Assembly: GCA_029547025.1 (NCBI GenBank)
Contig: JAKPQA010000154.1
Coordinates: 1-40,299 of the forward strand
Source of the DNA: Armatimonadota bacterium
Lineage (GTDB): Bacteria > Armatimonadota > Zipacnadia > UBA1398 > JAKPQA01
Reading direction: 5' to 3'
Length of the DNA stretch: 40,299 nucleotides
Part shown: one piece after another, positions 851-39,674 of the stretch
Position numbering within the stretch: the first letter of the stretch is position 1
Layout: each line of letters starts with the position of its first letter
Notes under the pieces: generated by a model
Database searches by the model: none
The model's input: the letters and a program-made list of their open reading frames with translations, nothing else
Told to the model about the DNA's origin: nothing
Program-made: the position numbers and the translations under genes

Positions 851-1993
851 TCACGACACGAGCTCAAGCGTCACGGCATCGGCGACGAGCAGCCCCTTAG
901 TCGTCAGGCGGAGCCGGCCATCGGCCAGCTCCAGCAAGCCTCGCTGCTGGAGCGAGTACCCCTTAGACCAGATCGGCGGTTCGGCGGTTCCACCTGGGGG
1001 GCCTTCGAGTGTGTCGAGGGCGATTCCCTCGCGGAGGCGTAGCCCGAGCATGATGGCCTCGGTCCACGCGTTTTCCGGGGTGATCTCCTCCGAACCCTCC
1101 TGGTATGAGACGCCGTCGGTCACGCACCGCACGTAGTCGTCGTGTTGTCGTGCGTTCCACCAGCGCCGGCCGGCGATGAACGAGTGAGCGGCCGCGCCGA
1201 GTCCCAGGTATTCGCCGCGGCGCCAGTACGTCAGGTTGTGCCGGCACTCGGCGCCCGGGCGGGCGAAGTTGGACACCTCATAGCGGTCAAGGCCGTACTC
1301 GGCCAGTACATGGCCTGCCCGGGCGAAGCACCACGCTTCGTCCTCTTCTGACATGGGAGCGATGCGGCCGGCATCGCGCGCCCGGCGCAGCGGTGTGCCC
1401 TCCTCGTAGGTGAGCGCGTAGGCCGAGAGGTGCGGAAGCCCTCGCCGGGCCAGTTCGCGCAAGTCCGCCTCGAAGCGGTCGGGGGACTGACCGGGGATGC
1501 CGTAGATCAGGTCGGCCGAGAGGTCACTAAAACCCACGGCGTGGGCATCGGTGATGGCTTGATGGGCCTGGGTGGCTGTGTGGGTCCTGCCCAGAGCCTG
1601 GAGGAGGTCGTCGGACAATGACTGCACTCCCAGGCTCAGCCGGTTCGCCCCGGCGTCGCGGAGGCGTGCCAGTGTGTCGCGGGTGACGGTGCCGGGGTTG
1701 GCTTCCACGGTCACCTCGATGTCCGGTTCGACGGGCATGGAGTTGAGGCAGACGGTGAGGAGAGCCGCCAGGTCGGCGGGTGGCACGACGGTGGGCGTGC
1801 CCCCGCCGATGTAGAGGGTCGCGAGTGACCGACCCTGGCTGGCCAGGCTCGCAAGCTGGCGCTCGGCGTCGGTATGGAGTGCGCGCATGTAGGCGGCCAC
1901 GCTGTCGTGGTTGGCTGGAACCGACGCGAAGTCGCAGTAGAGGCACTTGGTTCGACAGAAGGGTATGTGGATGTACACGGAGATGGGGCGCAT
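851..1993 (-). CDS. hemW: HemW-type radical SAM protein (heme chaperone; coproporphyrinogen oxidase-like)
   Basis: A 380-residue radical SAM protein. The cluster motif is at C13-x3-C17-x2-C20, followed by D-F. HemW proteins have this CDF, whereas true HemN enzymes have a further Cys two residues after the third, so HemW is the better call. IGGGTPT near residue 65 is the SAM-binding glycine motif, and the C-terminal region (NLTYWRRGEYLGLGAAAHSF) is the usual HemW/HemN wing. Family knowledge: HemW binds heme and helps insert it into respiratory proteins in the cytoplasm; it is not thought to be an oxidase. It starts 5 bp after the lepA stop codon, so the two are almost certainly cotranscribed, a pairing seen in many bacteria. 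Length is normal. A heme-handling protein is consistent with the cytochromes at 36546-39674, but the distance allows no direct link. Confidence 0.95.
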   Translation of the reverse strand: MRPISVYIHIPFCRTKCLYCDFASVPANHDSVAAYMRALHTDAERQLASLASQGRSLATLYIGGGTPTVVPPADLAALLTVCLNSMPVEPDIEVTVEANPGTVTRDTLARLRDAGANRLSLGVQSLSDDLLQALGRTHTATQAHQAITDAHAVGFSDLSADLIYGIPGQSPDRFEADLRELARRGLPHLSAYALTYEEGTPLRRARDAGRIAPMSEEDEAWCFARAGHVLAEYGLDRYEVSNFARPGAECRHNLTYWRRGEYLGLGAAAHSFIAGRRWWNARQHDDYVRCVTDGVSYQEGSEEITPENAWTEAIMLGLRLREGIALDTLEGPPGGTAEPPIWSKGYSLQQRGLLELADGRLRLTTKGLLVADAVTLELVS

Positions 1994-1998
1994 GGGCG

Positions 1999-3828
1999 TC
2001 AGTCGTCGAGCTTGAGGAGGGTCATGAATGCCTCCTGGGGGATCTCGACACTCCCCACCATCTTCATCCGTTTCTTGCCGGCCTTCTGCTTCTCGAGCAG
2101 CTTACGCTTGCGGGTGATGTCCCCCCCGTAACACTTGGCCAGCACGTTCTTGCGATAGGGAGAGATGGCGGCGGCCGCGATCACACGTCCCCCGATGGCG
2201 CCCTGGATCTGGATCCGGAACTGCTGCCGGGGGAGCACGTGCTTGAGCCGGCTGACGATGTCGCGGGCCCGCTCGTAGGCTCGATCGCGGTGGATGATGA
2301 CTGAAAGGGCATCGACCGGGTCGCCGTTGAGCCAGATGTCGAGCCGGACCACGTTGGCTGGACGCACGCCGATGGGCTCATAGTCGAGGGACCCATAGCC
2401 CCGGCTACGGGATTTGAGTTGGTCGAAGAAGTCCACGAGGATCTCGGCGAGAGGGAGCTCGTACACGAGCGTGACCCGCTGGCCGTCATGGTAGTGCATG
2501 TTGGAGAAGACGCCGCGCCGGTCGCCACAGAGCTCCATGAGGGGCCCGACGTATTCCTCAGGTGTGCTGATCCGGGCGAGGACGTAGGGCTCCTCGACCC
2601 GGACGATCCGGTCGGCGGTAGGGAAGAGGGACGGGTTGTCGATGTCGACGGCACTACCGTCGGTCAAGTGGACACGGTAGACCACGTTGGGCGCCGTGGC
2701 GATGAGGTTGGAGCCGTATTCGCGTTCGAGGCGCTCCTGGACAATCTCCATGTGGAGCAAGCCGAGGAAGCCCGCGCGGAAGCCGAAGCCAAGGGCTTCG
2801 GAGGTCTCCTTCTCGTAGCTGAGGGCCGCGTCGTTGAGCTGGAGCTTCTCGAGGGCGTCGCGCAGGTTGTCGTATTCCGAGTTGTCGGTGGGGTAGAGTC
2901 CGCAGAACACCACGGGCTGGGCGACCTTGTAGCCGGGGAGTGGCTCGGGAGCGGGATGGTGGGCATCGGTGACCGTATCGCCGACGCGCATATCCGACAG
3001 GCGCTTGACGCCGGCGACGAGGAAGCCGACGTCACCGGCCAGGAGCTCCCGGGCGGGCACGAGACCGGGAGCGAAGATGCCCACGGTCTCGACCCGGAAG
3101 GACCCGCCGGTGGCCATCATGCGGACGATCTGGCCGGCGCGGACCGAGCCCGAGACGACGCGGATGAAGCCGATGACCCCCCGGTGGGGGTCGAAGGTCG
3201 AGTCGAAGATGAGGCAACGCAGGGGTTCCTCATCGCTGACGGGCGGCGGAACGCGGTCGACGACGGCCTGGAGGACTTCCTCGGTGCCGATGCCTTCTTT
3301 GGCGCTGGTGAGGACCACGTCGTCGGGATCGAGTCCGAGTTCGTCGAGGATCTGCTCTTTCACCTCGTCGATGCGAGCACCTGGCAGGTCGATCTTGTTG
3401 ATCACCGGGATGATGGTGAGGTTGTGCTCGAGCGCCATCAGGAAGTTGGCGATGGTCTGGGCCTCGACGCCCTGGGAGGCGTCGACGAGCAATAGGGCCC
3501 CCTCGCACGCAGCGAGTGTGCGTGAGACCTCGTAGGCGAAGTCCACATGGCCGGGGGTGTCGATGAGGTTGAGCGTGTAGGTCTCGCCATCGCGGGCCGT
3601 GTATTCGAGCCGGACGGCGCTGGCCTTGATGGTGATTCCGCGCTCGCGCTCGAGGTCCATCTGGTCGAGGACCTGCTCGCGCATCTGCCGATCGGGCACG
3701 GCCCCGGTGAACTCCAGAAGGCGGTCTGCCAGCGTGGACTTCCCGTGGTCGATGTGCGCGATGATGCAGAAGTTGCGTACGAGAGCCCGCGTGCGCGGCT
3801 TCTCAACTGTGGCGGTCGGTGCATCCAT
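1999..3828 (-). CDS. lepA: Elongation factor 4 (LepA), translational GTPase
   Basis: A 609-residue GTPase of normal length. GTPase motifs: G1 AHIDHGKST at residues 24-32, G2 region RERGITIK at 61-68, G3 DTPGH at 90-94, then NKID and a SAKEGIG segment. The LepA-specific C-terminal domain is complete ([14 protein letters not shown], and the terminal stretch [18 protein letters not shown]). Family knowledge: LepA acts on ribosomes in the cytoplasm during initiation or stalled elongation. The ATG at 3828 is followed by a short acidic/Pro leader before the conserved [12 protein letters not shown]. It is the first gene of the lepA-hemW operon, and a minus-strand -10-like box lies about 60 bp upstream. 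No oddities seen. Confidence 0.98.
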
Positions 3829-3885
3829 GTTGTGGTTGTGTCGGCATCCTCACGTCTACCTCAGGCCCTGTTGTCCCTTCGGGTC

Positions 3886-3913
3886 AGTATACGGGCTAAG
3901 GGGGGCTCGGGGA
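3886..3913 (-). promoter_or_regulatory. Candidate sigma70-type promoter of lepA-hemW
   Basis: On the minus strand a TATACT box (3891-3886; five of six matches to TATAAT) is preceded at 16 bp spacing by a weak TTCCCC box (3913-3908). It lies about 58 bp upstream of the lepA ATG in an otherwise very GC-rich stretch. The -10 is good and the -35 poor, so this is tentative. Confidence 0.4.
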
Positions 3914-3989
3914 AGAGCCGGGAGGACGGGATGAAGGGCGGCGAAACCGTGCCCCGTCTTGCCCCCACGTGACGCGCGACCCTCCAGCG

Positions 3990-4024
3990 GGCCGGATGGC
4001 GCCCTTCCCGCTGCGCGGGCCCCT
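3990..4024 (+). repeat. Palindromic element M1, copy 1
   Basis: This stretch contains the hairpin CCCGC-TGC-GCGGG flanked by GGCGCCC and GGCCCC. Its reverse complement matches 40128-40162 with one difference in about 34 bases (CGCAGCGGG against CGGAGCGGG). The two copies are 36 kb apart, in opposite orientation and both outside genes, as expected for a dispersed intergenic repeat family. No coding function is visible. Confidence 0.7.
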
Positions 4025-4102
4025 TCCATTCGGCCCGGCGCTCGGTGGCCCTCGACGGGCCGGAGAGCGCATCCAGGCGGCGCGATCCGCCTTCGGTCGA
4101 CC

Positions 4103-4166
4103 CGGGCCCATTGGGGGCCCACCATCCGGCTTCGCCGGACGGTCCTCCCCATGTGGCCCCTCCGCC
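4103..4166 (+). repeat. Hairpin element M2, copy A
   Basis: Architecture: CGGGCCCATTGGGGGCCCAC, then a hairpin ACC-A-TCCGGC-TTC-GCCGGA-C-GGT (4121-4143), then CCTCCCCATGTGGCCCCTCC. Three further copies lie at 39741-39796, 39993-40055 and 40204-40249, all in this orientation. The flanks stay similar while the stem sequence differs between copies and still pairs. I do not recognise the element from any named family. Confidence 0.7.
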
Positions 4167-4324
4167 ACACACCAAGACCCGCCCGGCCCAAGGGCCTCGG
4201 GTGGCGCGCGGCGTGACGAAGGGCAGCGGGCAGGGTGAGCGGGGCGGGCGCGTTCCCGGCAGGAGGCCCGGTGGGCCGGTCGGAACTCGCGCCGGACCAC
4301 CTCGCCGTGTTGGAGGCGTTTGGC

Positions 4325-6871
4325 ATGGTAAGGGCACTGGGCGCGGCGTGGGCCGTGCTGGCGTTCGCAGCGACGGCAGCAGACGCCGGCACGCTCACTG
4401 TTCCGTGGTCGCGGGACACGTTCGACGCGGATGAAGGCTGCGTGTGGGCGCCGGAGCAGGACCAGTTGAACTTCCCGCGCATGAACGCGCACTACATCGC
4501 GCCGCCGGAGGAGGGGGCCGACTGGCAGGCTTGGCTCGAGTCGCTGCGGCGGTACCGCCGGTTCGTGCGCGAGCACCTGGGTGACGCCTCTGGGTGGCGT
4601 ATCGACGTCGACTTCGACGGCGTACGTGCATGGATTCGGCTGGACGAGGCCTGGTCGAAGGCTCTGGCGCTCGCTCCCGGTGAGCGGATCGTGCTCGAGG
4701 GTCAGGCGCGTTGGCGCGAGGGGAATGACCGCCTCTGCGCGGCTTTCGACCTGTGGACGAAGGGGGACGGCCGGTCCGACTACTGGGCGGGCTGGTCGGG
4801 TGTTGTCGCTTGGGCCCGTGTGCCGGCGGATGGCGAGTGGCATCCGTTCCGGATGGAGGTGACGGTCCCTCCCTTTGATGTGAATGCCGTTCGGGCGCGG
4901 CCGATCTTCGGCATGGATGGGACGTTCGACACCACGCGCGGTCGCCTATCGCTGAAGGAGCTCTCGCTGACGGTGCCGCGGCCGGCGCGGTCGGCCGGCG
5001 TTTTCGAGTTCGGCGCAGCGGTACGACCACCGCTAATCGATGACGCCCTCTACCGTCGGCCGGACCTGGCATGGGCGAGCCGCAACTTCGTGTGCGGGTT
5101 CGTGTTCATGTACGACCGGGCATTCTGGGATCCGGAGACGGGGCGGTACCAGGTGGACCGGCTCCTGCGGGACGCGCGGCGGGAGTTCGGTGGATTCGAC
5201 TCGGTGGTGCTCTGGCAGGCGTACCCGCGCATCGGGGCCGACGCCCGGAACCAGTTTGACTTCTTCCGGGACATGCCCGGGGGCTTGTCGGCCTTGCGCG
5301 AGGTCGTTGACCGTTTCCATCAGAGCGGCGTCCGGGTGTTCATCCCGTACAACCCCTGGGACCTGAGCACGAGGCGCGAGGCCGTCTCTGACGACGAGGC
5401 GCTGGCGCGAATGGTTGCGGCTCTCGGTGCCGATGGCGTTTTCCTCGATACCATGGTCGAGGCGCCGGCGGGTCTGCGGGAGGCTGTCGACGCGGTCCGG
5501 CCGGGGGTGGTCTTGGAGCCCGAGGGGCATCCGACGGTCGAGGAGCTGGAGCGTTGCAGCAGCTCGTGGGCCCAGGGGCTCGAGAGCTTTCCCGGTATCG
5601 GGGCGCTGCGGCTGAAGTGGATCGAGCCGCGGCACATGCAGCACCAGATCCGGCGGTGGGACACCTCGCACACCAGCGAGCTGGCCGCGGCGTGGCTGAA
5701 CGGCAGCGGCATGCTGGTGTGGGAGAACGTGTTCGGCACGTGGAACCCATGGGACCCATCCGACCGGGCCGCCCTGCGGCGCATGGCGCCGGTGCAGCGC
5801 GCGTTCGCCGACCTCCTGTCGGCTGGCGAGTGGCTGCCGGCCTACCCGACGCAGACGGCGTCGGTGCATGCTTCGTGCTGGCAGCGCGGTGGCGTGCGGT
5901 TGTGGACGCTGATGAACGAGGGCGCCGCAGGCGACATCGCGGTTCTCGAGGCCGGGCCGTCTGGGGTGCGGTGGTATGACTTGTGGCGCGGGGCTGAGCT
6001 TGAACCGAGGGGCGGTCAGGTTGTGCTCCCGCTCGACCGGCTTGGTGCGGTTCTGTCGCTCGAGCCCGGGGTCTCTGTCGCGGGTCTGCGGGAGCTGCTG
6101 CGCGCTCAGGCGCGGCGCGCCGAGCGCGACGCGGCGCCACCGGCGATCGACGCCCGCATGGCCGCGCTGCCGGTGGTGGAGTCCAAGCCGGCTCCGGCGG
6201 TGGCGGCCAGCGCGGCGGCTCCTGAGGGCATGCTGCGAGTGGCCGGTGGCGAACATGCGTTTCACGTGGAACACATGCGGCGCGAGTGCGGATGCTTCCC
6301 CGACCCCGGCACACCCCGTCGGGGCTGGATGGACTTCCTGCGTGGCTACCCGTATGACGAGAGGTTGGCGCATCAGGCCGTGGTGGCGACCGGGGACTTG
6401 TGGGTGGCCCCCGGGGTGGTGACGAAGGGCCAATACGCGCGGTTCCTGGCAGCCACTGGCTACCGCCCCCGGTGCGGCGACCGGTTCCTGGCGGACTGGC
6501 CCGGCCGGTCCTGTCCGCCGGGGCGCGAGCAAGAGCCCGTGGTGTACGTCGATCTTGCAGACGCTCGAGCGTACGCCGCTTGGGCGGGTGGCCGGTTGCC
6601 GACCGAGTGGGAGTGGCAGGCTGCCGCCGAGGCGTTGGGAGACGCCTTCGTGCGGGGCGAGGTGTGGGAGTGGACGGAGAGCGAGCGTGACGACGGCCAC
6701 ACGCGCTTCGCGATGCTCCGGGGCGGGAGCCGGTATCGCGCCGAGGGGTCGGTGTGGTACTTCCCGGGGGGCGAGCAGCCGATCGGGACCCACGCCAAGT
6801 TCCTGCTGATGCACCCGGGGCTCGACCGGTGCGGGACCATCGGTTTCCGGTGCGTGGTGCCAGCGGTGTGA
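4325..6871 (+). CDS. Secreted glycosidase-like protein fused to a C-terminal FGE-sulfatase fold
   Basis: I place the start at the ATG at 4325 because it opens a clean signal peptide (MVRALGAAWAVLAFAATAAD, cut near ADA-G); the frame is open from 4235 but that part looks non-coding. The mature protein is about 825 residues. Residues ~30-235 are a Trp-rich beta-sandwich-like region that may bind carbohydrate. Residues ~238-560 resemble a TIM barrel of a glycoside hydrolase: FVFMYDRAFWDPETGRYQVD, VLWQAYPRIG, VFIPYNPWD, LGADGVFLDTMVEAP near 370-380 and VVLEPEGHP near 395, with several candidate catalytic Asp/Glu. Residues ~634-848 are an FGE-sulfatase fold: TKGQYARFLAATGY, GRLPTEWEWQAAAEA, EVWEWTE, LRGGSRYR, GTIGFRCV. 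The Cys pair that true formylglycine-generating enzymes carry after RGGS is absent, so I predict a binding or lost-activity module. Substrate unknown. It stands alone between divergent lepA and the uvrA-like gene. Confidence 0.75.
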   Translation: MVRALGAAWAVLAFAATAADAGTLTVPWSRDTFDADEGCVWAPEQDQLNFPRMNAHYIAPPEEGADWQAWLESLRRYRRFVREHLGDASGWRIDVDFDGVRAWIRLDEAWSKALALAPGERIVLEGQARWREGNDRLCAAFDLWTKGDGRSDYWAGWSGVVAWARVPADGEWHPFRMEVTVPPFDVNAVRARPIFGMDGTFDTTRGRLSLKELSLTVPRPARSAGVFEFGAAVRPPLIDDALYRRPDLAWASRNFVCGFVFMYDRAFWDPETGRYQVDRLLRDARREFGGFDSVVLWQAYPRIGADARNQFDFFRDMPGGLSALREVVDRFHQSGVRVFIPYNPWDLSTRREAVSDDEALARMVAALGADGVFLDTMVEAPAGLREAVDAVRPGVVLEPEGHPTVEELERCSSSWAQGLESFPGIGALRLKWIEPRHMQHQIRRWDTSHTSELAAAWLNGSGMLVWENVFGTWNPWDPSDRAALRRMAPVQRAFADLLSAGEWLPAYPTQTASVHASCWQRGGVRLWTLMNEGAAGDIAVLEAGPSGVRWYDLWRGAELEPRGGQVVLPLDRLGAVLSLEPGVSVAGLRELLRAQARRAERDAAPPAIDARMAALPVVESKPAPAVAASAAAPEGMLRVAGGEHAFHVEHMRRECGCFPDPGTPRRGWMDFLRGYPYDERLAHQAVVATGDLWVAPGVVTKGQYARFLAATGYRPRCGDRFLADWPGRSCPPGREQEPVVYVDLADARAYAAWAGGRLPTEWEWQAAAEALGDAFVRGEVWEWTESERDDGHTRFAMLRGGSRYRAEGSVWYFPGGEQPIGTHAKFLLMHPGLDRCGTIGFRCVVPAV

Positions 6872-10100: not shown

Positions 10101-12459
10101 GCTCAACGGGCGCGTGTTCAACCTGTCGGTTGAGGAGCTCGACTTCGGCACGAAGCGCCGGCACGATGTCGACTGCATTGTCGATCGTCTGAAGCCGTCG
10201 CGCGAGCGACTGGACCGTCTGGCGGAGAGCGTTCGCCTCGCCCTGGACTTGGGCGCGGGCGGGCTGGTCTGCGAGTTCATGGACGGTGAGGGTCTCGGCC
10301 CGGCCACCACCTACTCGTCGAGGATCCAGTGTGCCCAGTGCCGGGCTTCGCTCGAACCCGAGCTCACCGCGCGCCACCTATCGTTTGGCCACCCTCTCGG
10401 GCAGTGCCCCCAGTGCCGGGGCACGGGGACGGTGCGGGCCTTCGACCCGGGGTCCATCGTCCCCGACCCGTCTCGGAGTTTCGCCCGGGGTGCCATCGCG
10501 CCATTGACGCGAGCTCAGTATGCCGATCCGCGTTCGGACTGGTCGCGGGCCTTCGCGGCACTGGGTCGATCCTTCGGATTCGACCGGAACACGCCCTTCG
10601 CCGACCTGGATGCCCGGCAGCTGCGCGTCGTCTTGTATGGCGCCGGCGATCGGCGACTCTCGATCCATGTGAACGGTCCGTCGGGCTCGGTGGTACGCCG
10701 CACCTGGAAGGGGCTCATACCGATTCTCGAGGGCGCGATTCGGCGTGACCCCCGCAAGGCCAAGGGGCTGGCCCGCTACCAGGCCGATGTGCGCTGTTCG
10801 GCCTGCGACGGGGAGCGTCTGATGCCCGAGTTCCGGGCGGTCCGCGTGGGCGGCCGACGCCTTCCCGAGCTGGTGGAGATGACCGTTGACGAGGCGCTCG
10901 AGTTCGTTTCGACCCTCACACTTCCCGATGCGCAGCAGCAGACGGCATCGGGCCTGCTCTCCGAGCTACGGGGCCGGCTGCGTTTCATGCAGGGCGTGGG
11001 ACTGGGGTATGTGACGCTCAGTCGGGGCATGGGCACTCTGTCCGCGGGGGAATCGCAGCGCGTGCGACTGGCGGCACAGCTCGGCGGGACGCTGTCGGGG
11101 CTGCTGTACGTCCTCGATGAGCCATCGGTCGGGTTGCACCCGCATGACATGGTCTCGCTCGTGTTCGCCCTCGAGGAGCTCAGGGAGCTTGGGAACACGG
11201 TCATCGCGGTCGAGCACGATGAGGCCATGATGGCTCATGCCGACTATCTGGTGGACATGGGCCCGGGGCCCGGGCGTCTGGGAGGGCGGGTCATGGCGGC
11301 GGGCCCCCGCGATGACGTGCTGCCCGCTGTACTGGCGGCCCGTCCGGCCCTGCGGAGCGGGTCGTGCGTTCCCGCATCCCGGCAGCGTTGCATCCGGCTC
11401 ACGGGCGTCCGCCATCACAATCTGCGGAACGTGACGGTCCACGTGCCGATCGGAGCGCTCACCTGCGTGACCGGGGTGTCCGGGTCGGGCAAGAGCTCGC
11501 TGGTCTTTGACGTGCTCCGCGCCGCCCTGCGCCGCAGACTCCAGGGCCACGGTCCGGCGCCGGGGGAGCATGACAGCATCGAGGGACTGGCGGCCATCGA
11601 CCACGTTATCGTCGTGACGCAGGCCGCTCTGGGTCAGAGCATGCGCTCCGTGCCGGCCACCTATGTGGGGTTCTTCGACGCGGTACGTGGCCTGTTCGCC
11701 AGCCTGCCCGAATCCCGGGCACGGGGGCTGACGCGTGCCCACTTCTCGTTCAATGACGCCAAGGGCCGGTGCCGCGCCTGCCAGGGCGACGGGTACCGCC
11801 AGGTGGATCTCCAGCTCATGGCCGACCTGACCTTCGTGTGCGAGCAGTGCCAGGGACGCCGCTACCAGGATGAGGTGCTGACGGTCACGTACCAGGGCAA
11901 GTCCATCGCTGACGTGCTGGCCCTGACCTTCGACGAGGCCGCGGTGTTATTCCAGGGCGTGCCGGAGATCGAGGCCCCCATTGCCGCCGTGTGCCGCGCG
12001 GGCCTGGGCTATGTGGTGCTGGGGCAGCCCTCGCCGACGCTCTCCGGCGGCGAGTCGCAGCGGCTGAGGCTGGCCACCGCCCTCGTCAGGCCCTCGTCGG
12101 GGCATGGACTCTATCTGATGGACGAGCCCACCACGGGCCTGCATGCCCGTGACGTAGCCGTGCTCCATCGCGTGCTGCGCCAGCTGGTTGATTCGGGTGC
12201 CACCGTCGTGATCATCGAGCACAACCTCGATATGATCGCCGCGGCGGACCACGTTATCGACCTGGGACCAGGCGGCGGCCCAAACGGGGGGCGGCTGCTG
12301 GTAGAAGGGCCACCGGAGGCCGTCATGGGCTGCCGCGAGTCGGTCACGGGCATGTACCTCCGCACCCACGTTGGGCACACTGCCGAAGGTGTCCGCAATG
12401 GCTCCCCGTCGCGCCGCCGGTCTTCGTCCCGGCGTGAGGGGACGGCTGGTGAGGGATAG
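7108..12459 (+). CDS. uvrA: Tandem UvrA fusion (excinuclease ABC subunit A-like), four ATPase heads
   Basis: About 1783 residues, nearly twice a normal UvrA. Two UvrA units are joined near residue 815. Walker A motifs GVSGSGKS/GPSGSGKS begin at residues 35, 495, 849 and 1456. ABC signatures are LSGGEAQRV twice, then LSAGESQRV and LSGGESQRL. Each half has a CxxC zinc module before its second ATPase (GRCEACSGAG, GRCRACQGDG). In the first half the chain passes directly from the LFARAGEG segment to the GACPACGGTG zinc module, so the UvrB-binding domain and first zinc site are missing, as in class II UvrA. The second half keeps that region (HCPQCGEAVRPLTADAIADR to QCAQCRASL), as in class I. UvrA normally works as a dimer recognising DNA damage and loading UvrB. 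The GTG at 7108 is chosen because it gives the usual spacing to the first Walker A and follows GAAGG; an ATG at 7069 would add 13 unlikely residues. No uvrB or uvrC is in the window. Confidence 0.9.
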   Translation: MRQTTTHISVRGACEHNLRNIDLDLPHDQLVVFTGVSGSGKSSLIYETLFRESQRRHVASLPLHLRALFGGLTRPKADTLDGLRPAIAVQRTGLRSGRRGTVGAITEVLDFLAVLFARAGEGLEADDVDPRVFLPTSHRGACPACGGTGTRDEVDLGALLPDPRRSISEGAIASTTPTGYVRYSRLTRPGWLVLASVLGFSLDTPWEALTPEQRDAVLYGSPGLRQASSLLSDFGGIVPTIQAAYRRSPTGLTRRFVRTVTCQDCLGTRLNPEALRVRLGGRTMAELQGLTVDACQEFLAGVHFDGSRRRIAEAILPEISLRLGLLVELGLGYLHLDRPVDTLSGGEAQRVRLASQVSSGISGVLYVLDEPSVGLHARDHNRLLGVLRRLRDLGNTLCVAEHDRSTILAADYVVDMGPGPADRGGRVVASGPPSAIAESPESITGAYLRGARTAIRLGPRRPAVGPAITIRGARFRNLKNLDVRIPLGALVCVTGVSGSGKSTLVHGILRPALSRLLTQGRSSRPVGDHDAVEGAEQIARVIEIDQQPIGRSPRSNPATYTRAFDHIRNAFAKMPEAQVRGFGLSHFSFNVAGGRCEACSGAGVIRVPMQLVPDVFVECEECGGKRFSRDVLRVRYRGVSISQVLEMTAEAARELFSSIPAVERAMSALCEVGLDYIRLGQPATSLSGGEAQRVKLAAHVAKPRMGHTLYLLDEPTTGLHFADIDRLLHLLGRLVDEGNTVLVIEHNPDVIRSADWVIDLGPEGGDGGGEIVAEGTPEDLQALGRRGDCRSWTARLLASPDDCIADAPGPRMWPAGGPQRQLCVRGARANNLQAIDVDIPKAAITCVTGPSGSGKSSLVFDTIYAACQNTFAQCLSSYARQALGGMRALDATSVTGVSPAVAVDRRSRVASSRSMVGTATEVLQLLRVLWARVGVRHCPQCGEAVRPLTADAIADRIAADAGGRMIQLVAPVARGARRRREVAELVADLVAGGLVRVRLNGRVFNLSVEELDFGTKRRHDVDCIVDRLKPSRERLDRLAESVRLALDLGAGGLVCEFMDGEGLGPATTYSSRIQCAQCRASLEPELTARHLSFGHPLGQCPQCRGTGTVRAFDPGSIVPDPSRSFARGAIAPLTRAQYADPRSDWSRAFAALGRSFGFDRNTPFADLDARQLRVVLYGAGDRRLSIHVNGPSGSVVRRTWKGLIPILEGAIRRDPRKAKGLARYQADVRCSACDGERLMPEFRAVRVGGRRLPELVEMTVDEALEFVSTLTLPDAQQQTASGLLSELRGRLRFMQGVGLGYVTLSRGMGTLSAGESQRVRLAAQLGGTLSGLLYVLDEPSVGLHPHDMVSLVFALEELRELGNTVIAVEHDEAMMAHADYLVDMGPGPGRLGGRVMAAGPRDDVLPAVLAARPALRSGSCVPASRQRCIRLTGVRHHNLRNVTVHVPIGALTCVTGVSGSGKSSLVFDVLRAALRRRLQGHGPAPGEHDSIEGLAAIDHVIVVTQAALGQSMRSVPATYVGFFDAVRGLFASLPESRARGLTRAHFSFNDAKGRCRACQGDGYRQVDLQLMADLTFVCEQCQGRRYQDEVLTVTYQGKSIADVLALTFDEAAVLFQGVPEIEAPIAAVCRAGLGYVVLGQPSPTLSGGESQRLRLATALVRPSSGHGLYLMDEPTTGLHARDVAVLHRVLRQLVDSGATVVIIEHNLDMIAAADHVIDLGPGGGPNGGRLLVEGPPEAVMGCRESVTGMYLRTHVGHTAEGVRNGSPSRRRSSSRREGTAGEG

Positions 12460-20767: not shown

Positions 20768-21280
20768 ATGGGCGCGGAGAGCCTGCAGTTGACGGCCACG
20801 ATGGAGGACTATCTGGAGAGCATCTTGTTGCTCTCGAGGAAGCGCCGCGTGGTGCGGATGCGCGACATCGCCAATCTCCTTGGGGTGACTCCCTCAACAG
20901 CAACGGGTGCCGTGCAGGCTCTGAAGAAGCATGGTCTGCTCTCACATGAGAAGTATGAGGACGTCATTCTGACGCCGCGCGGGCAGTCGATCGCTGAGGA
21001 CGTGTATCAGCGTCACGAGGACATCCGGGATTTTCTCCAGGCGGTACTCCTTCTGGATCGGGAGATGGCCGAGGAGGAGGCGTGTCGGATCGAGCACAGT
21101 ATCACACCGTTTACATTGGAGCGTCTGAGGCGCTTCGCAGCGACTCTGAGGCTCTGCAACCAGGGGGAGCCCGGGTGCCTTCGGGCGTTCCGTACCTACG
21201 TGGATACTGGCGAGCTGGTGCCTCCCCCGTGTGCCCAGGTGGCCGGGGGACAGCGGCTGCAGCCTGAGGAGGTTGGCTAG
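20768..21280 (+). CDS. DtxR/MntR-family metal-dependent transcriptional regulator
   Basis: 170 residues. The N-terminal winged helix is clear: ATMEDYLESILLLSRKRR, then MRDIANLLGVTPSTATGAVQ (about 31-50) and the wing up to VILTPRGQSIAEDVYQRH. The second half holds the dimerisation and metal-binding helices (EDIRDFLQAVLLLDREMAEE, ACRIEHSITPFTLERL), where family members bind Fe(II) or Mn(II) with Glu, His and Cys ligands. No C-terminal SH3/FeoA-like domain is attached, so it resembles the shorter MntR/TroR/IdeR-like forms. It is first in an operon with feoA (2-bp gap) and feoB, so iron-responsive repression of ferrous iron uptake is the natural role. A strong promoter lies upstream at 20660-20699. 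Confidence 0.93.
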   Translation: MGAESLQLTATMEDYLESILLLSRKRRVVRMRDIANLLGVTPSTATGAVQALKKHGLLSHEKYEDVILTPRGQSIAEDVYQRHEDIRDFLQAVLLLDREMAEEEACRIEHSITPFTLERLRRFAATLRLCNQGEPGCLRAFRTYVDTGELVPPPCAQVAGGQRLQPEEVG

Positions 21281-21282
21281 AT

Positions 21283-21510
21283 ATGCCTCTGACGGCACTT
21301 GCGCCCGGCCAGCGTGCTTTCGTGACGGCGATCAGCGGCGGCCACGGCATGCGCAGACGCTTGGCGAGCATGGGGCTGACCACGGGGTGCGAGGTTGTGG
21401 CGCTGATCAGCCGAGGCCAGGGCCCGGTGGTGGTGGCGGTGCGGCAGACGCGGCTGGCGTTGGGCCGGGGCATCGCTTCGAGGATCGACGTGGAGCCGCT
21501 GGAGGGGTGA
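21283..21510 (+). CDS. feoA: FeoA, SH3-like partner of the ferrous iron transporter
   Basis: 75 residues, preceded by GAGGAGG. The sequence MPLTALAPGQRAFVTAISGG, then MRRRLASMGLTTGCEV and ALGRGIASRIDVEPLE, is the FeoA SH3-like fold of about the normal length. FeoA is a small cytoplasmic protein needed for FeoB activity. It lies between the DtxR-family regulator and feoB, and its stop precedes the feoB GTG by one base, so translation is tightly coupled. Confidence 0.95.
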   Translation: MPLTALAPGQRAFVTAISGGHGMRRRLASMGLTTGCEVVALISRGQGPVVVAVRQTRLALGRGIASRIDVEPLEG

Positions 21511-21511
21511 A

Positions 21512-23563
21512 GTGACACAGCCCGCCACCGAAGCCATGCCGCGTGATCTTACGGTCGCACTCGCCGGCAACCCGAACTCGGGCAAGACGTCCCTGTTCAA
21601 CGAACTCACGGGATCGCGTCAGCACGTCGGGAACTGGCCGGGGGTCACCGTGGAGCGGAAAGAAGGCTACCGCCGGACCGCCAGTGGCCGCGCCCGAGTC
21701 ATTGATCTTCCGGGTACTTACTCCCTGACAGCGAGCTCGCCCGATGAGCGCGTGGCTCGCGATTTCATCATCAGCGGTGAGAGTGATGTGGTCATCGCGG
21801 TGGTGGATGCGAGCAACCTCGAGCGCAACCTGTACCTGGTCGTGCAGCTCATCGAACTGGGCACCCCCCTGGTCGTGGCGCTGAACATGAGTGATGTGGC
21901 CGAGGACCGGGGTTTCGTGATCAACGTGGACAAGCTCTCCGAGCTGCTGGACGTTCCCGTGATTCCCACCTGCGCACACGTGGGGGAGGGTGTGGAACCG
22001 CTCTGGGAGGCGGCACTGGCGCAGGCGCGAGAGGCCCGGGCGCCGCGGCCCATCCGCTACGGCCGCCAGATCGACGAGGCCATCGAGACCGTTCAGGCGA
22101 GCCTGCTCCAGTTGCCCGGTGCCGCCACAGCGGAGCGGCGGCTGGTGTGGCTTGCGATGAGCTTGCTTGTGGGTGAGGAGCCCGCGTGGCCAGGGCTGGC
22201 TGCAGACGACCCAGCCCTCGCGCGGGTGCGGTCCACGGCCCGGGCGGCGGCCCGGCATTTGGAGGAAGTGACCGGCGACACGGCCGAGGCCGTGATCACC
22301 GGAGGCCGCTACGGCGCGATCCAGGGAGTGTACCGCGAGGCGGTGGATGAGCCGCGCGAGGCCGGTCCCACGCCGTCAGACCGCATTGACCGGGTCCTAC
22401 TGCACCGCGTCTGGGCCCTGCCGATCCTCCTGGCGACCGTGGCGGCAATGTTCGAGCTCACCTATGTCGTTGGGGAGTACCCCAGCGGCTGGATTGGGGA
22501 GGGCGTGGCCGCGCTCGGAGGCTGTGTCTCGGCCTGGATGCCAGACGGGCCCCTCCGATCGCTTCTGGTGGATGGCGTGATCGGCGGCGTGGGCGGTGTC
22601 CTGGTGTTCGTTCCCCAGATCTTCATCCTGTTCGCCATCATTGCGCTGCTCGAAGACAGCGGGTACATGGCGCGGGCGGCCTTCGTGATGGACCGAGTGA
22701 TGCACCGGATGCGCCTGCACGGGAAGGCGTTCATCCCGATGGTGATGGGCTTCGGGTGCAACGTGCCGGCCATCATGGCGACCCGGACACTCGAATCGCC
22801 GCGCGACCGCCTGGTGACGATCCTGGTGGCTCCCTTGATGACCTGCAGCGCCCGACTGCCGGTCTATGCATTGATCGCCGGAGCCCTGTTCGGCCCCCAT
22901 GCCGGACTGGCGATCTTCTCGATGTACGTGCTCGGCGTGGTGCTGGCCGCGCTGGTGGCACGGATCCTGCGGCATCATGTGCTCCGGGGCGAGGAAGAAC
23001 CATTCGTGATGGAGCTTCCTCCGTACCACAGGCCAACGGCCAAGGGGATTGCCATTCACACATGGGAACGTGGGAAGCTCTTCTTGCAGAAGGCGGGCAC
23101 TGTGATCCTGGCGGGCTCAGTGATCATGTGGTGCCTCAGTGCGTTGCCTTGGGGGGTGGAAGTGGCGGGCCCCCAGAGTTACGCGGGGCAGCTTGGGAAG
23201 GCGCTGGAGCCGGCCGTGAGGCCCCTGGGCCTCGAGTGGCAGGAGGCCGTGGCCCTGGTGTCGGGCTTCGTGGCGAAGGAGATCGTGGTCTCGACCATGG
23301 GCGTGCTGTATGGCGTCGGGGCCGAGGCGGGCGATGCGGAACTCGGCCGGGCTATCGCGAGCAGCCACCTGACGCCGCTGTCGGGCTATGCCCTGATGGC
23401 GTTCGTGCTGGTCTACTCGCCCTGCATCGCGGCGATTGCCGCCATGAGGCGGGAGACGGGTTCGTGGAAGTGGGCGATCATCGCGGTGGCCTACCTCACG
23501 GCTCTAGCCTGGGTGGTCGCCTTCGTGATCTTCCAGGGGGGCCGCCTGCTCGGGCTGGGCTAG
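21512..23563 (+). CDS. feoB: Ferrous iron transporter FeoB
   Basis: 683 residues, a normal single-chain FeoB. The N-terminal GTPase has G1 GNPNSGKT at 19-26, G2 GVTVE at 44-48, G3 DLPG at 65-68 and G4 NMSD at 125-128. A helical GDI-like spacer reaches about residue 285, then the membrane domain with two Gate regions begins (LLHRVWALPILLATVAAM). The conserved pore sequence MVMGFGCNVPAIMATRTLES is intact, including the Cys. A second Gate follows (LVSGFVAKEIVVSTMGVLYG) and the last helix ends at the C-terminus. The start is GTG at 21512 with GGAGGGG just upstream. It imports Fe(II) across the cytoplasmic membrane, mainly when oxygen is low. No feoC is seen; the next gene is 295 bp away and unrelated. 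Confidence 0.98.
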   Translation: MTQPATEAMPRDLTVALAGNPNSGKTSLFNELTGSRQHVGNWPGVTVERKEGYRRTASGRARVIDLPGTYSLTASSPDERVARDFIISGESDVVIAVVDASNLERNLYLVVQLIELGTPLVVALNMSDVAEDRGFVINVDKLSELLDVPVIPTCAHVGEGVEPLWEAALAQAREARAPRPIRYGRQIDEAIETVQASLLQLPGAATAERRLVWLAMSLLVGEEPAWPGLAADDPALARVRSTARAAARHLEEVTGDTAEAVITGGRYGAIQGVYREAVDEPREAGPTPSDRIDRVLLHRVWALPILLATVAAMFELTYVVGEYPSGWIGEGVAALGGCVSAWMPDGPLRSLLVDGVIGGVGGVLVFVPQIFILFAIIALLEDSGYMARAAFVMDRVMHRMRLHGKAFIPMVMGFGCNVPAIMATRTLESPRDRLVTILVAPLMTCSARLPVYALIAGALFGPHAGLAIFSMYVLGVVLAALVARILRHHVLRGEEEPFVMELPPYHRPTAKGIAIHTWERGKLFLQKAGTVILAGSVIMWCLSALPWGVEVAGPQSYAGQLGKALEPAVRPLGLEWQEAVALVSGFVAKEIVVSTMGVLYGVGAEAGDAELGRAIASSHLTPLSGYALMAFVLVYSPCIAAIAAMRRETGSWKWAIIAVAYLTALAWVVAFVIFQGGRLLGLG

Positions 23564-36545: not shown

Positions 36546-37523
36546 GTGCGGTTCTTGGCGGACTATCGAAGCAGTGCATGGATGGCGCTGGCCGCCCTGC
36601 TGGTGTGTTGGGGCGCGGATGCGTCATGGTCGGCCGGCGACGCCGGAGGCCCACCGCGGCCGGGGGGACGTTGCCTGCCGTGCCACGGGGCGTCGCCCAC
36701 GCTCGAGGCGGTTGGGGAGAGCGGGGCGACCGCTTCGTTGCACGTCGACCCCCTCGCGTACCAGGCCTCGGTCCATGGCGCGCTGGACTGCGAGGCGTGC
36801 CACTGGCGGATGTCGGACATGGGCGAGCCCCGCGGAGCGAACGGCGAGTCCGTCGACCCGGTATGGCTGAGTCGCCTGACCACCTCCGTCCCGGACCGCG
36901 CGCGGCGCGTGCTGGAGCGCTGCGCGCCCTGTCATCGCCCGGAGGCCGACGACTACGCGCGGAGCATCCACTTCGACGCCGTGTCCGGCAGCGGCACCGA
37001 GGCCCCGGTGTGCAGCGATTGCCATGGCGCGCACGCTATCCTGCGACACGACGATATCGAGTCATCGACCAGCCAGGCCAAGGTGCCTGCGACCTGTGCC
37101 CGATGCCATGCCAACGCGCGCATCATGGCCCGGTATGATGTGCGCACCGACACGGTGAAGACCTTCGAGGAGAGCTTCCACGGCAAGAAACACGAGCTGG
37201 GCTCGAAGCGAGCGGCCGTGTGCTCGAGTTGCCACGGCGGGCACGATATCCGGCCCGCGACCGACCCCGGATCGAGGCTGTCGCCGGCCAACCGGATCGC
37301 GACATGCGCCGCGTGCCATCCGGGGTGCACCGAGCAGTTCGCTCTCTCGTTCGGCCACAAGCCGATGACGGCCAAGGAGCAGCCCCTGGTCTACTGGATC
37401 GGCGTCTTCTATCGACTGATGATCGCGCTGACGATCGGCGGCATGATCGGCTACATCAGCCTCGACCTGTTGCGCAAGGCGCTGAGCACGAGGGGAGGGG
37501 GCGGCTCGCCACCGCCCGAGTGA
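36546..37523 (+). CDS. Membrane-anchored heptaheme cytochrome c
   Basis: 325 residues with seven CXXCH sites at C43, C82, C126, C156, C184, C226 and C254. A signal segment is at ~11-30 (AWMALAALLVCWGADASWSA). His residues at 66, 77, 142, 163, 212, 233 and 271 lie in the SxHG and GxH contexts that provide second axial ligands, so most hemes are likely bis-His. A C-terminal membrane helix (~282-308, VYWIGVFYRLMIALTIGGMI) anchors it with the hemes in the periplasm. The layout resembles NapC/cytochrome c3-like periplasmic multiheme proteins, but the family is not certain. Its stop overlaps the start of the cytochrome b gene by one base. Oddity: the only strong ribosome site (AGGAGGAGGG, 36505-36514) precedes a GTG at 36520 in another frame, while this GTG has none within 20 bp. 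Confidence 0.88.
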   Translation: MRFLADYRSSAWMALAALLVCWGADASWSAGDAGGPPRPGGRCLPCHGASPTLEAVGESGATASLHVDPLAYQASVHGALDCEACHWRMSDMGEPRGANGESVDPVWLSRLTTSVPDRARRVLERCAPCHRPEADDYARSIHFDAVSGSGTEAPVCSDCHGAHAILRHDDIESSTSQAKVPATCARCHANARIMARYDVRTDTVKTFEESFHGKKHELGSKRAAVCSSCHGGHDIRPATDPGSRLSPANRIATCAACHPGCTEQFALSFGHKPMTAKEQPLVYWIGVFYRLMIALTIGGMIGYISLDLLRKALSTRGGGGSPPPE

Positions 37524-38233
37524 TGAAGCGAGCGAGTGGGGAGAGGCAGTTCGTGCGGTGGAATGGCCACCACCGGGCCCAGCACCTGGGTGTGGTGCTG
37601 AGCTTCACAGCGCTCGTGTTCACGGGCCTGCCACTTCGCTACCCCGAAGCGGCCCCCTCGCGCTGGATCATGTCGCTTCTCGGCGGCGCGACCAACGCGG
37701 GGATCATCCACCGCGTGGCGGCCGTCGGCCTGCTGGCCGCATCGGCCTACCACGTGCTCTATGTGCTGGCCATGTGGCGGGCTGGCCATCGCCAGATTCA
37801 CATGCTGCCCGGGCTCAAGGACGTCCGCGACGTGTTCGACATGCTGCGGTACTTCGCCGGGCTCCAGCCTCACCCGCCCAAGATGGGGCGGTACGGCTTT
37901 CCCGAGAAGTTCGAGTACTGGGCCATGGTGTGGGGCACGGCCATCATGGCGGCCACGGGGTTCATGATGTGGTTCCCCGAGGTATTCCTGCGCTACCTTC
38001 CCGCCTGGGCCCTGGCGGCCGCGCAGGCGATCCATGGCTGGGAAGCGGTTCTCGCGGCCCTGGCCATCCTCATCTGGCACTTCTACCATGCACACTGGAG
38101 CCCCGACGTGTTCCCCATGAGCCGGGTGTGGCTCACTGGCCGGATCTCGGAGTCGGAGCTCAAGCATCACCACGCATTGGAGTGGGAGCGCATCCAGGCG
38201 GAGGAAGTCGCGGCCGGTCCGGCCGCGGACTGA
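37523..38233 (+). CDS. Four-helix cytochrome b subunit
   Basis: 236 residues from the ATG at 37523; GTG at 37520 is the alternative. Four membrane helices are seen at about 22-38, 62-84, 131-153 and 160-190. Candidate heme b ligands are H21, H77, H171 and H186, with H63 and H189 also nearby. The sequences HRAQHLGVVLSFTALVFTGL and EKFEYWAMVWGTAIMAATGF resemble the cytochrome b subunits of formate dehydrogenase and Ni/Fe hydrogenase, and similar proteins paired with multiheme cytochromes in Geobacter and relatives. The role is most likely electron exchange between the quinone pool and the multiheme cytochromes in the membrane. It is tightly coupled to the heptaheme gene before it and followed within 40 bp by the 20-heme gene. 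Confidence 0.87.
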   Translation: MKRASGERQFVRWNGHHRAQHLGVVLSFTALVFTGLPLRYPEAAPSRWIMSLLGGATNAGIIHRVAAVGLLAASAYHVLYVLAMWRAGHRQIHMLPGLKDVRDVFDMLRYFAGLQPHPPKMGRYGFPEKFEYWAMVWGTAIMAATGFMMWFPEVFLRYLPAWALAAAQAIHGWEAVLAALAILIWHFYHAHWSPDVFPMSRVWLTGRISESELKHHHALEWERIQAEEVAAGPAAD

Positions 38234-38270
38234 GGCGGTTCGTGTGACGACGGAACAGGAAGAGTGGGAC

Positions 38271-39674
38271 ATGCGTGAGGAGCGAGACCGAGCCATCGCG
38301 CGGTCGCGTCGCCGGCAGCTGGGCCGGCGCGTGCTCGCGACGGTCGGTCTTGTCCTCGGGGTCATGGCATGGCTGAGTGGGTGCCCGCAGGGCTTGGGGA
38401 AGCCCAGGGTGCCATCGGGCGCCGCCGCGGCCCCCACGAGTCCGCCGGTCCTGCCTCAGTACCTGCCCACGAAGGTCATCGCACAGATCAAGGGCCTCCC
38501 GTGCTTCGACTGCCACAACGTGCTGACCGGCAAGTCGGCCCAGGAGACCCCCATCGATTTCTCGCACGCGCGACACCTGACACGGGGCGAGCACTGCCAG
38601 AAGTGTCACACCAACCCGAACCACAGCGCCGACCCCAAGCAAGTGGCTGGTATGCGCCCCCCGATGGCCACGTGCGTGGACTGCCACCAGACGGCCGGCG
38701 GGCCCCAGGCGTGCGCCGCGTGCCACACGAACCGGAGCCGGATCCAGCCCGCAAGCCACGCCGAGGAGGGGTTCATCCGTAACCACGGGCGTCTGGATCT
38801 GTCTCGATGCACGGACTGCCACGAGCCGGTCTTCTGCTCGGCCTGCCACGTGGTCCAGGTACCCCATCCCAAGGGGTGGAACCACGGCCAGACAGCCCTG
38901 GCGAGCGACCAGTGCGGCAAGTGCCACCCGCGGTCGACGTGCGACAACTGCCACGGGCTGCCGATGCCCCATCCGAAGCACTTCGCAGGAACCCATGGCG
39001 CGCTGGCGAGCACCCAGCGGGCGCTGTGCACGAAATGCCACTCGCGGTCCGAGTGCCAGAAGTGCCATTCGTCCCAGAACCCCCACCCGAAGGACTGGAT
39101 GAAGAGCCATGGCGCACAAGCCAGCGTTCGGCTGAGCTCGTGCCGCGAGTGCCACAGCGACGAGAGCTGCACGGCGTGCCACGGAGTGCAGGTGCCGCAC
39201 CCGGACCCATGGGTCCCCTGGCACACCCAGGCGTTCGAGAGCAAGCCGGACACGTGCGAGAAGTGCCACTCCATGGACGGGTGCCAGAACTGCCACGATG
39301 TCCGAGGGCCCCACGGTAACGGCTGGCGGACATCCCATCCGCAGAGCCTGAAGGGTCACGAGGAATCCTGCGCGGCATGCCACCCCGCCTCATACTGCTA
39401 CAACTGCCATGGCATGGCCATGCCTCATCCGGCCGAGTTCGCGGCCGACCACGGCCCGGCGGCGCGGAAGCAGCCAAGCACCTGCTCCCGCTGCCACACG
39501 CCGGACGAGTGCCTGGCGTGTCACCAGAGCCTGAAGCCCAAGGACCACACTGAGGAGTTCGCGCTGGAACACAAGGGAGCCGCGAAGGGTCATGTCCTCG
39601 CATGCGTCTTGTGCCATCAGCGGGACTACTGCTCGGCATGCCACGATCTGCCTGAGCTCGCCGCGAAGCCCTAG
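38271..39674 (+). CDS. 20-heme c-type cytochrome lipoprotein with 38-residue di-heme modules
   Basis: 467 residues from the ATG at 38271, preceded by AGGAAG; GTG at 38244 is an alternative start. The signal (RRVLATVGLVLGVMAWLSGC) has a good lipobox, LSGC at 35-38, so the mature protein is a lipoprotein at C38. There are exactly 20 CXXCH sites, at C78, C109, C135, C148, C180, C189, C215, C224, C253, C262, C291, C300, C329, C338, C367, C376, C405, C414, C445 and C454. From C180 on, hemes come in pairs 9 residues apart, and successive pairs are 35, 38, 38, 38, 38, 38 and 40 residues apart. Each unit also has a PHP and a W/F-x3-H, enough His for bis-His ligation. It is the third gene of the cytochrome cluster and could carry electrons away from the membrane. 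Family not recognised. Confidence 0.93.
   Translation: MREERDRAIARSRRRQLGRRVLATVGLVLGVMAWLSGCPQGLGKPRVPSGAAAAPTSPPVLPQYLPTKVIAQIKGLPCFDCHNVLTGKSAQETPIDFSHARHLTRGEHCQKCHTNPNHSADPKQVAGMRPPMATCVDCHQTAGGPQACAACHTNRSRIQPASHAEEGFIRNHGRLDLSRCTDCHEPVFCSACHVVQVPHPKGWNHGQTALASDQCGKCHPRSTCDNCHGLPMPHPKHFAGTHGALASTQRALCTKCHSRSECQKCHSSQNPHPKDWMKSHGAQASVRLSSCRECHSDESCTACHGVQVPHPDPWVPWHTQAFESKPDTCEKCHSMDGCQNCHDVRGPHGNGWRTSHPQSLKGHEESCAACHPASYCYNCHGMAMPHPAEFAADHGPAARKQPSTCSRCHTPDECLACHQSLKPKDHTEEFALEHKGAAKGHVLACVLCHQRDYCSACHDLPELAAKP
38808..39659 (+). repeat. Internal 114-bp (38-residue) di-heme repeat array
   Basis: Eight di-heme units start at codons near 38808, 38913, 39027, 39141, 39255, 39369, 39483 and 39603. 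Consensus: C-x2-CH-x4-C-x2-CH-x5-PHP-x2-W-x3-H. The five steps from 38913 to 39483 are exactly 114 bp. The units differ substantially in codons and residues, so the repeat is old and kept by selection, unlike a recent DNA duplication. Confidence 0.85.

Follow-up and report, generated by a model that had tools for sequence, protein, structure and literature searches.

Does the even spacing of heme-binding sites in a single large cytochrome of an Armatimonadota bacterium reflect a repeated, self-sufficient di-heme unit, and what could an array of such units do for the cell? The gene lies in the window, by which we mean the whole stretch of 40,299 nucleotides analysed here. An initial annotation had described a lipid-anchored cytochrome with twenty hemes and an exact 38-residue di-heme module repeated eight times. 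Twenty CXXCH sites are indeed found in one open reading frame (Table 1), and their positions agree with the earlier ones after a nine-residue shift; we number from the GTG start, whereas the earlier numbering started from an internal ATG (M10) and is nine lower.

Table 1. Features of the cytochrome genes in the window (nucleotide positions; residue numbers count from the GTG start)
Feature	Position	Strand	Remark
7-heme c-type cytochrome, C-terminal transmembrane tail	36546..37523	+	seven CXXCH read from sequence; Pfam c3/c7-type matches
Di-heme cytochrome b561/FdnI-like membrane protein	37523..38233	+	PF01292, TIGR01583
20-heme lipoprotein-like cytochrome, whole ORF	38244..39674	+	476 aa, GTG start
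Lipobox-like LSGC, lipidation Cys47	38373..38384	+	signal peptide shape read from sequence
Cytochrome c7-like four-heme N-terminal part (CXXCH 87, 118, 144, 157)	38490..38726	+	PF14522 E=1e-10
First two-His linker (H172, H181) ahead of array	38727..38807	+	conserved in relatives
Heme pair 1 (189/198)	38808..38849	+	CXXCH positions
Heme pair 2 (224/233)	38913..38954	+	CXXCH positions
Heme pair 3 (262/271)	39027..39068	+	CXXCH positions
Heme pair 4 (300/309)	39141..39182	+	CXXCH positions
Heme pair 5 (338/347)	39255..39296	+	CXXCH positions
Heme pair 6 (376/385)	39369..39410	+	CXXCH positions
Heme pair 7 (414/423)	39483..39524	+	CXXCH positions
Heme pair 8 (454/463), no His after	39603..39644	+	CXXCH positions

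The two CXXCH motifs are nine residues apart in all eight pairs, as the annotation had stated. The repeat length was less uniform than claimed, because five steps between pairs measure exactly 38 residues but the outer steps are 35 and 40 (35, five times 38, 40). Each linker between pairs contains two non-heme His residues, typically P/S-H followed by W/F-x3-H, and the second His recurs exactly 38 residues apart at 251, 289, 327, 365 and 403 (242 to 394 in the earlier numbering). The PHP motif attributed to every module is present in five linkers (207, 242, 280, 318 and 394), but one linker has PHG and one PKDH. At a lag of 38 residues the self-identity of the array is 26%, compared with a mean of 7% and a maximum of 12% in 2000 shuffles, and the unit-to-unit identity outside the heme Cys and His residues is about 19%. 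The periodicity had also been given as a 114-bp repeat of DNA, but it resides in the protein only, since Tandem Repeats Finder detected no DNA tandem repeat of the array period in the window. A recent tandem duplication was ruled out by the absence of a DNA repeat, the low identity between units and the positional identity kept across species. When the window protein was compared with its orthologue L002 of the 20-heme group, unit n best matched unit n (mean score of 92.9 versus 65.1 for other units), with the best match on the diagonal for six of the eight units; the diagonal is mostly lost against more distant members. Judged from these sequence comparisons, the array is old, the order of its units has been kept and, because units match by position between orthologues, it is maintained by selection.

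The annotation further supposed that each module could ligate both of its own hemes. One candidate distal ligand per heme is available, as eight linkers with two His residues each provide 16 His for the 16 array hemes, but the register implied, a pair with the following linker, is less likely. The final pair is not followed by any His, and H172 and H181 precede the first pair. Among 103 relatives whose C-terminus carries three or more consecutive pairs, the final pair is followed by no His in 62, and two or more His residues precede the first pair in 92. For these reasons the self-contained unit is more likely a linker with the pair that comes next, a register in which each pair would obtain two ligands. 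This stoichiometry is general: across the 529 internal units of 149 non-identical array proteins, every linker holds two or more non-heme His residues, the first and last of which are 8 residues apart in 342 units and 9 in 87. The pair spacing is 9 in 387 of these units, 10 in 85 and 11–12 in 57, and the unit length is 38 in 132, 39 in 109, 40 in 93 and 41 in 82. Each unit would accordingly comprise two hemes and two candidate distal ligands. The c7-like part contributes H108, H111, H117 and H127 as non-heme His for its four hemes, and full bis-His ligation of all 20 hemes is possible.

A regular repeat fold was also predicted by AlphaFold2. The heme-free model of the last six pairs (45 in-register alignment rows, pLDDT 80.1, pTM 0.49) has helices at 24-34/36-39/45-52, 62-72/74-77/83-90, 100-107/112-115/121-128 and 138-148/150-154/159-169, that is, at an exact period of 38 residues, and we regard the repeat fold as predicted with moderate confidence. 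The full-length model was poor (29 rows, pLDDT 59.8). Foldseek returned no PDB fold match at E<=10 for the six-pair model and none for the full-length model, and no convincing PDB profile match to the array was obtained. Profile matches to MtrC (E 2e-4) aligned the CXXCH motifs out of pair register and appear to be driven by composition; homology of the array to MtrC/MtrF or MtrA was rejected. The array is not matched by any Pfam or NCBIfam model. Within Pfam, NCBIfam and the PDB, the array was therefore not recognised as an already described family of known structure, an outcome that would have refuted the annotation. The suggestion that the protein may fall under paired-CXXCH annotations did not hold, as Paired_CXXCH_1 (PF09699/TIGR01905) did not match the window protein at E<=0.01. 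DmsE/MtrA (TIGR03508; criterion of 192.2 bits and ten hemes) gave no match at this threshold either. The NapC/NirT/NrfH type, an N-terminal transmembrane segment with a di-heme quinol site, was likewise absent in the Pfam profile search.

The N-terminal part alone belongs to a known type. PF14522 matches residues 83-149 with 41.7 bits, above its curated cut-off of 24.8, and this part also matches c7/PpcA and ActA in the PDB (profile A3). The proposed lipid anchor at C38 corresponds to Cys47 of our numbering, in a signal peptide with a lipobox-like sequence (VMAWLSGC47, by inspection). The lipid anchor is supported for the window protein but is not general in the family, as some orthologues are anchored by a NapC-type part or by a single membrane-spanning helix; by inspection, a lipobox Cys is present in L005, L015, L032 and L033 and absent from L002, L003, L011 and L014. 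With 476 residues for 20 hemes, the protein uses 23.8 residues, or about 2.6 kDa, per heme, compared with less than about 5 kDa of peptide per heme in peptide-minimised multiheme cytochromes (PMC7096707). Conductive multiheme wires have 22-39 residues per heme (PMC5566968), and we count the value of 23.8 in favour of a wire because it falls in this published range.

How widely is the array distributed? Of 61 related genomes, 15 contained homologues in whole-genome searches, and the array profile was positive in 50 of 291 Armatimonadota genomes, representing 35 of 156 genera. A collection scan yielded 149 relatives; its probe was alignment A2, in which two fragments (rows 2 and 10) were edited by hand and which served as a probe only, never as data, alignment A1 having been set aside because it had no conserved stretch. 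Among the matches listed (79 loci), most records are titled Armatimonadota or Actinomycetota, the latter including Thermoleophilia, Coriobacteriia, Anaerosomatales and Aquicultor, together with Carboxydocella thermautotrophica (Bacillota). In an even draw of 396 Actinomycetota genomes, 46 matched at E<=1e-15, a threshold at which other paired multihemes could contribute. Locus L091 (JACQXY010000024.1), titled Acidobacteria, was not accepted as a separate phylum, as searches centred there and on a Thermoleophilia genome draw the same genomes; its title is probably a misassignment. The plasmid search gave no match. The profile search proposed in the annotation therefore placed the array in Armatimonadota, Actinomycetota and Bacillota with a variable number of units, from 3 to 13 pairs and 8 to 32 hemes per protein, three pairs being the minimum that the search accepted.

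The array is attached to different N-terminal parts. A lipoprotein with a c7-like part and 7-8 pairs is found in the window, L005, L032 and the truncated L033, and a lipoprotein with five pairs in L015. A transmembrane helix takes the place of the lipid in L003, L011 and L014 (c7-like part, 6-8 pairs). A NapC/NrfH-like transmembrane di-heme part precedes a c7-like part and 11-13 pairs, with 28-32 hemes, in L004, L006, L009, L010, L013 and L026; it is combined with other multihemes and six pairs (26 hemes) in L007 and L031:4502-6874, and with a c7-like part and only three pairs in 12-heme proteins of Actinomycetota, e.g. L061 and L095. The NapC profile was present in the 26- and 12-heme relatives and weakly in one 32-heme relative. 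Finally, cytochrome b/b6, a single heme c and 7-10 pairs are joined in single polypeptides of L012 and L039. Genes of this b/b6 type, comprising b and petD-like parts, a single heme c and 6-10 pairs, occur at L012:1501-3882 (-), L039:4791-7481 (+) and L043:12193-14316 (+); they resemble a bc-type complex that carries its own heme array, and the L043 gene adjoins a Rieske protein (11672-12187). A frame of about 1,330 residues dense in CXXCH, with a C-terminal discoidin-like stretch, was also noticed in an Actinomycetes MAG (L106:3-4001, +) and is possibly a surface cytochrome.

In the window, the array gene is preceded by two genes of likely related function. The start of the cytochrome b561 gene overlaps the stop of the 7-heme c gene (TGATG), and the two proteins are 47% (b561) and 33% (7-heme c) identical to those encoded at the same positions in L031. 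The same order, a tail-anchored 7-9-heme c, cytochrome b561 and the array cytochrome, is observed in the window, twice in L031, and in L037 and L043; L032 and L036 have the c and array genes and, between them, a gap of fitting size, for which the b gene is assumed rather than cleanly called. The b561/FdnI-like protein is probably a quinol oxidase and the 7-heme c its probable electron-accepting partner. Directly upstream of the operon lies a polyprenyl synthetase gene (PF00348, 35368-36372, +), whose product may supply the quinone side chain. Elsewhere in the window, a DtxR-type metal repressor followed by a FeoB ferrous iron transporter is encoded at 20768-23563 (+), with no shown link to the cytochromes. 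On another contig of the same genome (G000, contig C112), a hexaheme cytochrome (L149:9442-10203, +) is 31% identical to the hexaheme beside the L031 arrays and is a candidate partner.

We consider it reasonably probable that these three genes form a quinol-oxidising electron export unit in which the 20-heme protein acts as a peptide-minimised conductor. The di-heme FdnI/b561-like cytochrome b would take electrons from menaquinol, the tail-anchored 7-heme c would receive them from cytochrome b, and the 20-heme protein would carry them away from the membrane, perhaps some way into the periplasm or right across it. In the 20-heme protein itself, a c7-like head with four hemes would lead into an eight-unit solenoid, each unit with two hemes and two distal-ligand His residues. 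The hemes would form an unbroken and probably elongated chain with low-spin bis-His coordination, whose length would depend on the number of units. On a published scaling, a periplasm of about 200 Å would need about 27 hemes (PMC7096707). By simple proportion, 20 hemes would correspond to about 150 Å and the 28-32 hemes of the NapC-anchored relatives to 205-240 Å; the latter exceed the figure of about 27 hemes.

Where an organism has a DmsE/barrel conduit, the array may connect this outer-membrane conduit to the inner-membrane oxidase. Full-length DmsE matches (145 bits or more, a threshold set once the table had been seen) were found in 37 of the 291 Armatimonadota genomes. The array is present in 27 of these 37 genomes versus 23 of the other 254 (Fisher p 1.7e-16, a statistic that ignores shared ancestry). 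The L032 cluster contains a DmsE decaheme cytochrome that exceeds the NCBIfam cut-off, together with a barrel-like protein of the GSU2204 type, and a single L043 polypeptide of 975 residues (1402-4326, +) combines the two parts. The fusion of DmsE/MtrA-type and GSU2204-like barrel parts was profile-checked in L043, and long open frames around DmsE matches in G053, G245, G248, G249 and G254 are candidates for it (975-1052 residues overall); such a fusion is possibly a single-polypeptide outer-membrane conduit. In the window's own genome, with an estimated completeness of 96%, a DmsE conduit was not found (best match of 46 bits), and only a weak match to the GSU2204-type barrel was obtained; both results count against the export reading.

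Long-range conduction has to be weighed against other uses of so many hemes. The array could instead be an electron reservoir, a capacitor that stores electrons from quinol oxidation for buffering without directed long-range conduction, a role also suggested for PCC3 cytochromes (PMC10734462) and agreeable with the many hemes per protein and a window genome without an MtrA-type outlet. Storage, however, requires neither a strictly regular unit length nor a conserved order of units, and the fusions to quinol-oxidising anchors point to conduction away from the membrane, and we therefore regard a reservoir as rather unlikely. It is quite unlikely that the array folds into a compact globular domain acting as a short-range relay or periplasmic reductase. 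Such a fold would fit the pTM of only 0.49 of the six-pair model, and a heme-free prediction cannot fix the arrangement between units; against it stand the periodic helices, a pattern kept over 3 to 13 units, and the finding that no linker has fewer than two His residues, which leaves no obvious open-site heme. An extracellular, polymerising nanowire subunit like OmcS, OmcE or OmcZ would likewise be multiheme and probably elongated with one His per heme, and nanowire cytochromes are reported to have evolved several times (PMC9473688). The presence of a lipid, transmembrane or NapC anchor across the family, the operon with an inner-membrane cytochrome b, and the lack of any sequence or fold match to solved nanowires make this very unlikely.

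Returning to a conductor anchored at the quinol oxidase, we tentatively suggest a more general role, which we hold with some doubt. The two-heme/two-His block may be a heme-wire domain tunable by copy number, undescribed in Pfam and NCBIfam and occurring in phyla with two membranes (Armatimonadota) and with one (Actinomycetota and Bacillota). It might lengthen NapC-, b561- and cytochrome b/b6-type quinol oxidases by a defined heme count, across the periplasm or the cell wall, and in some lineages 28-32 hemes might reach the outer membrane within one polypeptide. If the array forms a straight bis-His chain, it would be a natural, ruler-like wire that could be lengthened or shortened one unit at a time, and whether the periplasm is crossed by shuttle or wire would become testable in little-known phyla. 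Its attachment to three types of quinol oxidase would then suggest that the mechanism is general, and the regular repeat would be a convenient scaffold for relating conductance to heme number.

Cytochromes with a proposed periplasm-spanning role have been described before. The PCC3 cytochromes, periplasmic multihemes of Proteobacteria that oxidise Fe(II), have 21-27 hemes and were proposed to span the periplasm (PMC5566968, PMC10734462). Like the window protein, they are very large, have few residues per heme and heme sites in each repeat, and were predicted to be long and mostly linear. They differ, by description, in their partners, a porin, an extracellular multiheme cytochrome and a five-transmembrane protein, whereas the array is accompanied by cytochrome b561 and a tail-anchored 7-heme c, with no porin recognised up to the end of the contig 625 bases downstream of the array gene. 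For the two-heme/two-His repeat itself, we found no earlier description in the literature searched, most subscription literature lying outside that search. The MtrA/DmsE decaheme conduit (TIGR03508) is a peptide-minimised heme wire, as proposed here for the window protein, but the latter has 20 hemes, another spacing and unit, and no PDB fold match. The N-terminal four-heme part resembles cytochrome c7/PpcA and the c7-like domains of ActA (PF14522), whereas the eight-pair array is not c7-like in sequence. Relatives fuse the array to a NapC/NrfH-type anchor, which the window protein lacks. In a general comparison with CbcL/CbcBA, ImcH and ImdcA, again by description, the window neighbours form a pair of a CbcL-like b and a multiheme c (PMC6085454, PMC12307469). 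Multihemes of Anaerosomatales and Carboxydocella were previously listed as putative quinol oxidisers (PMC9686372, PMC6085454). A close system in a cultured, sequenced isolate is the 16-heme protein of Carboxydocella thermautotrophica 41 (L072:9836-11053), in which NapC, a c7-like part and five pairs are connected by the same PHPxxWxxxH linkers, although the spacing within its pairs is wider (10-22) and its host is Gram-positive.
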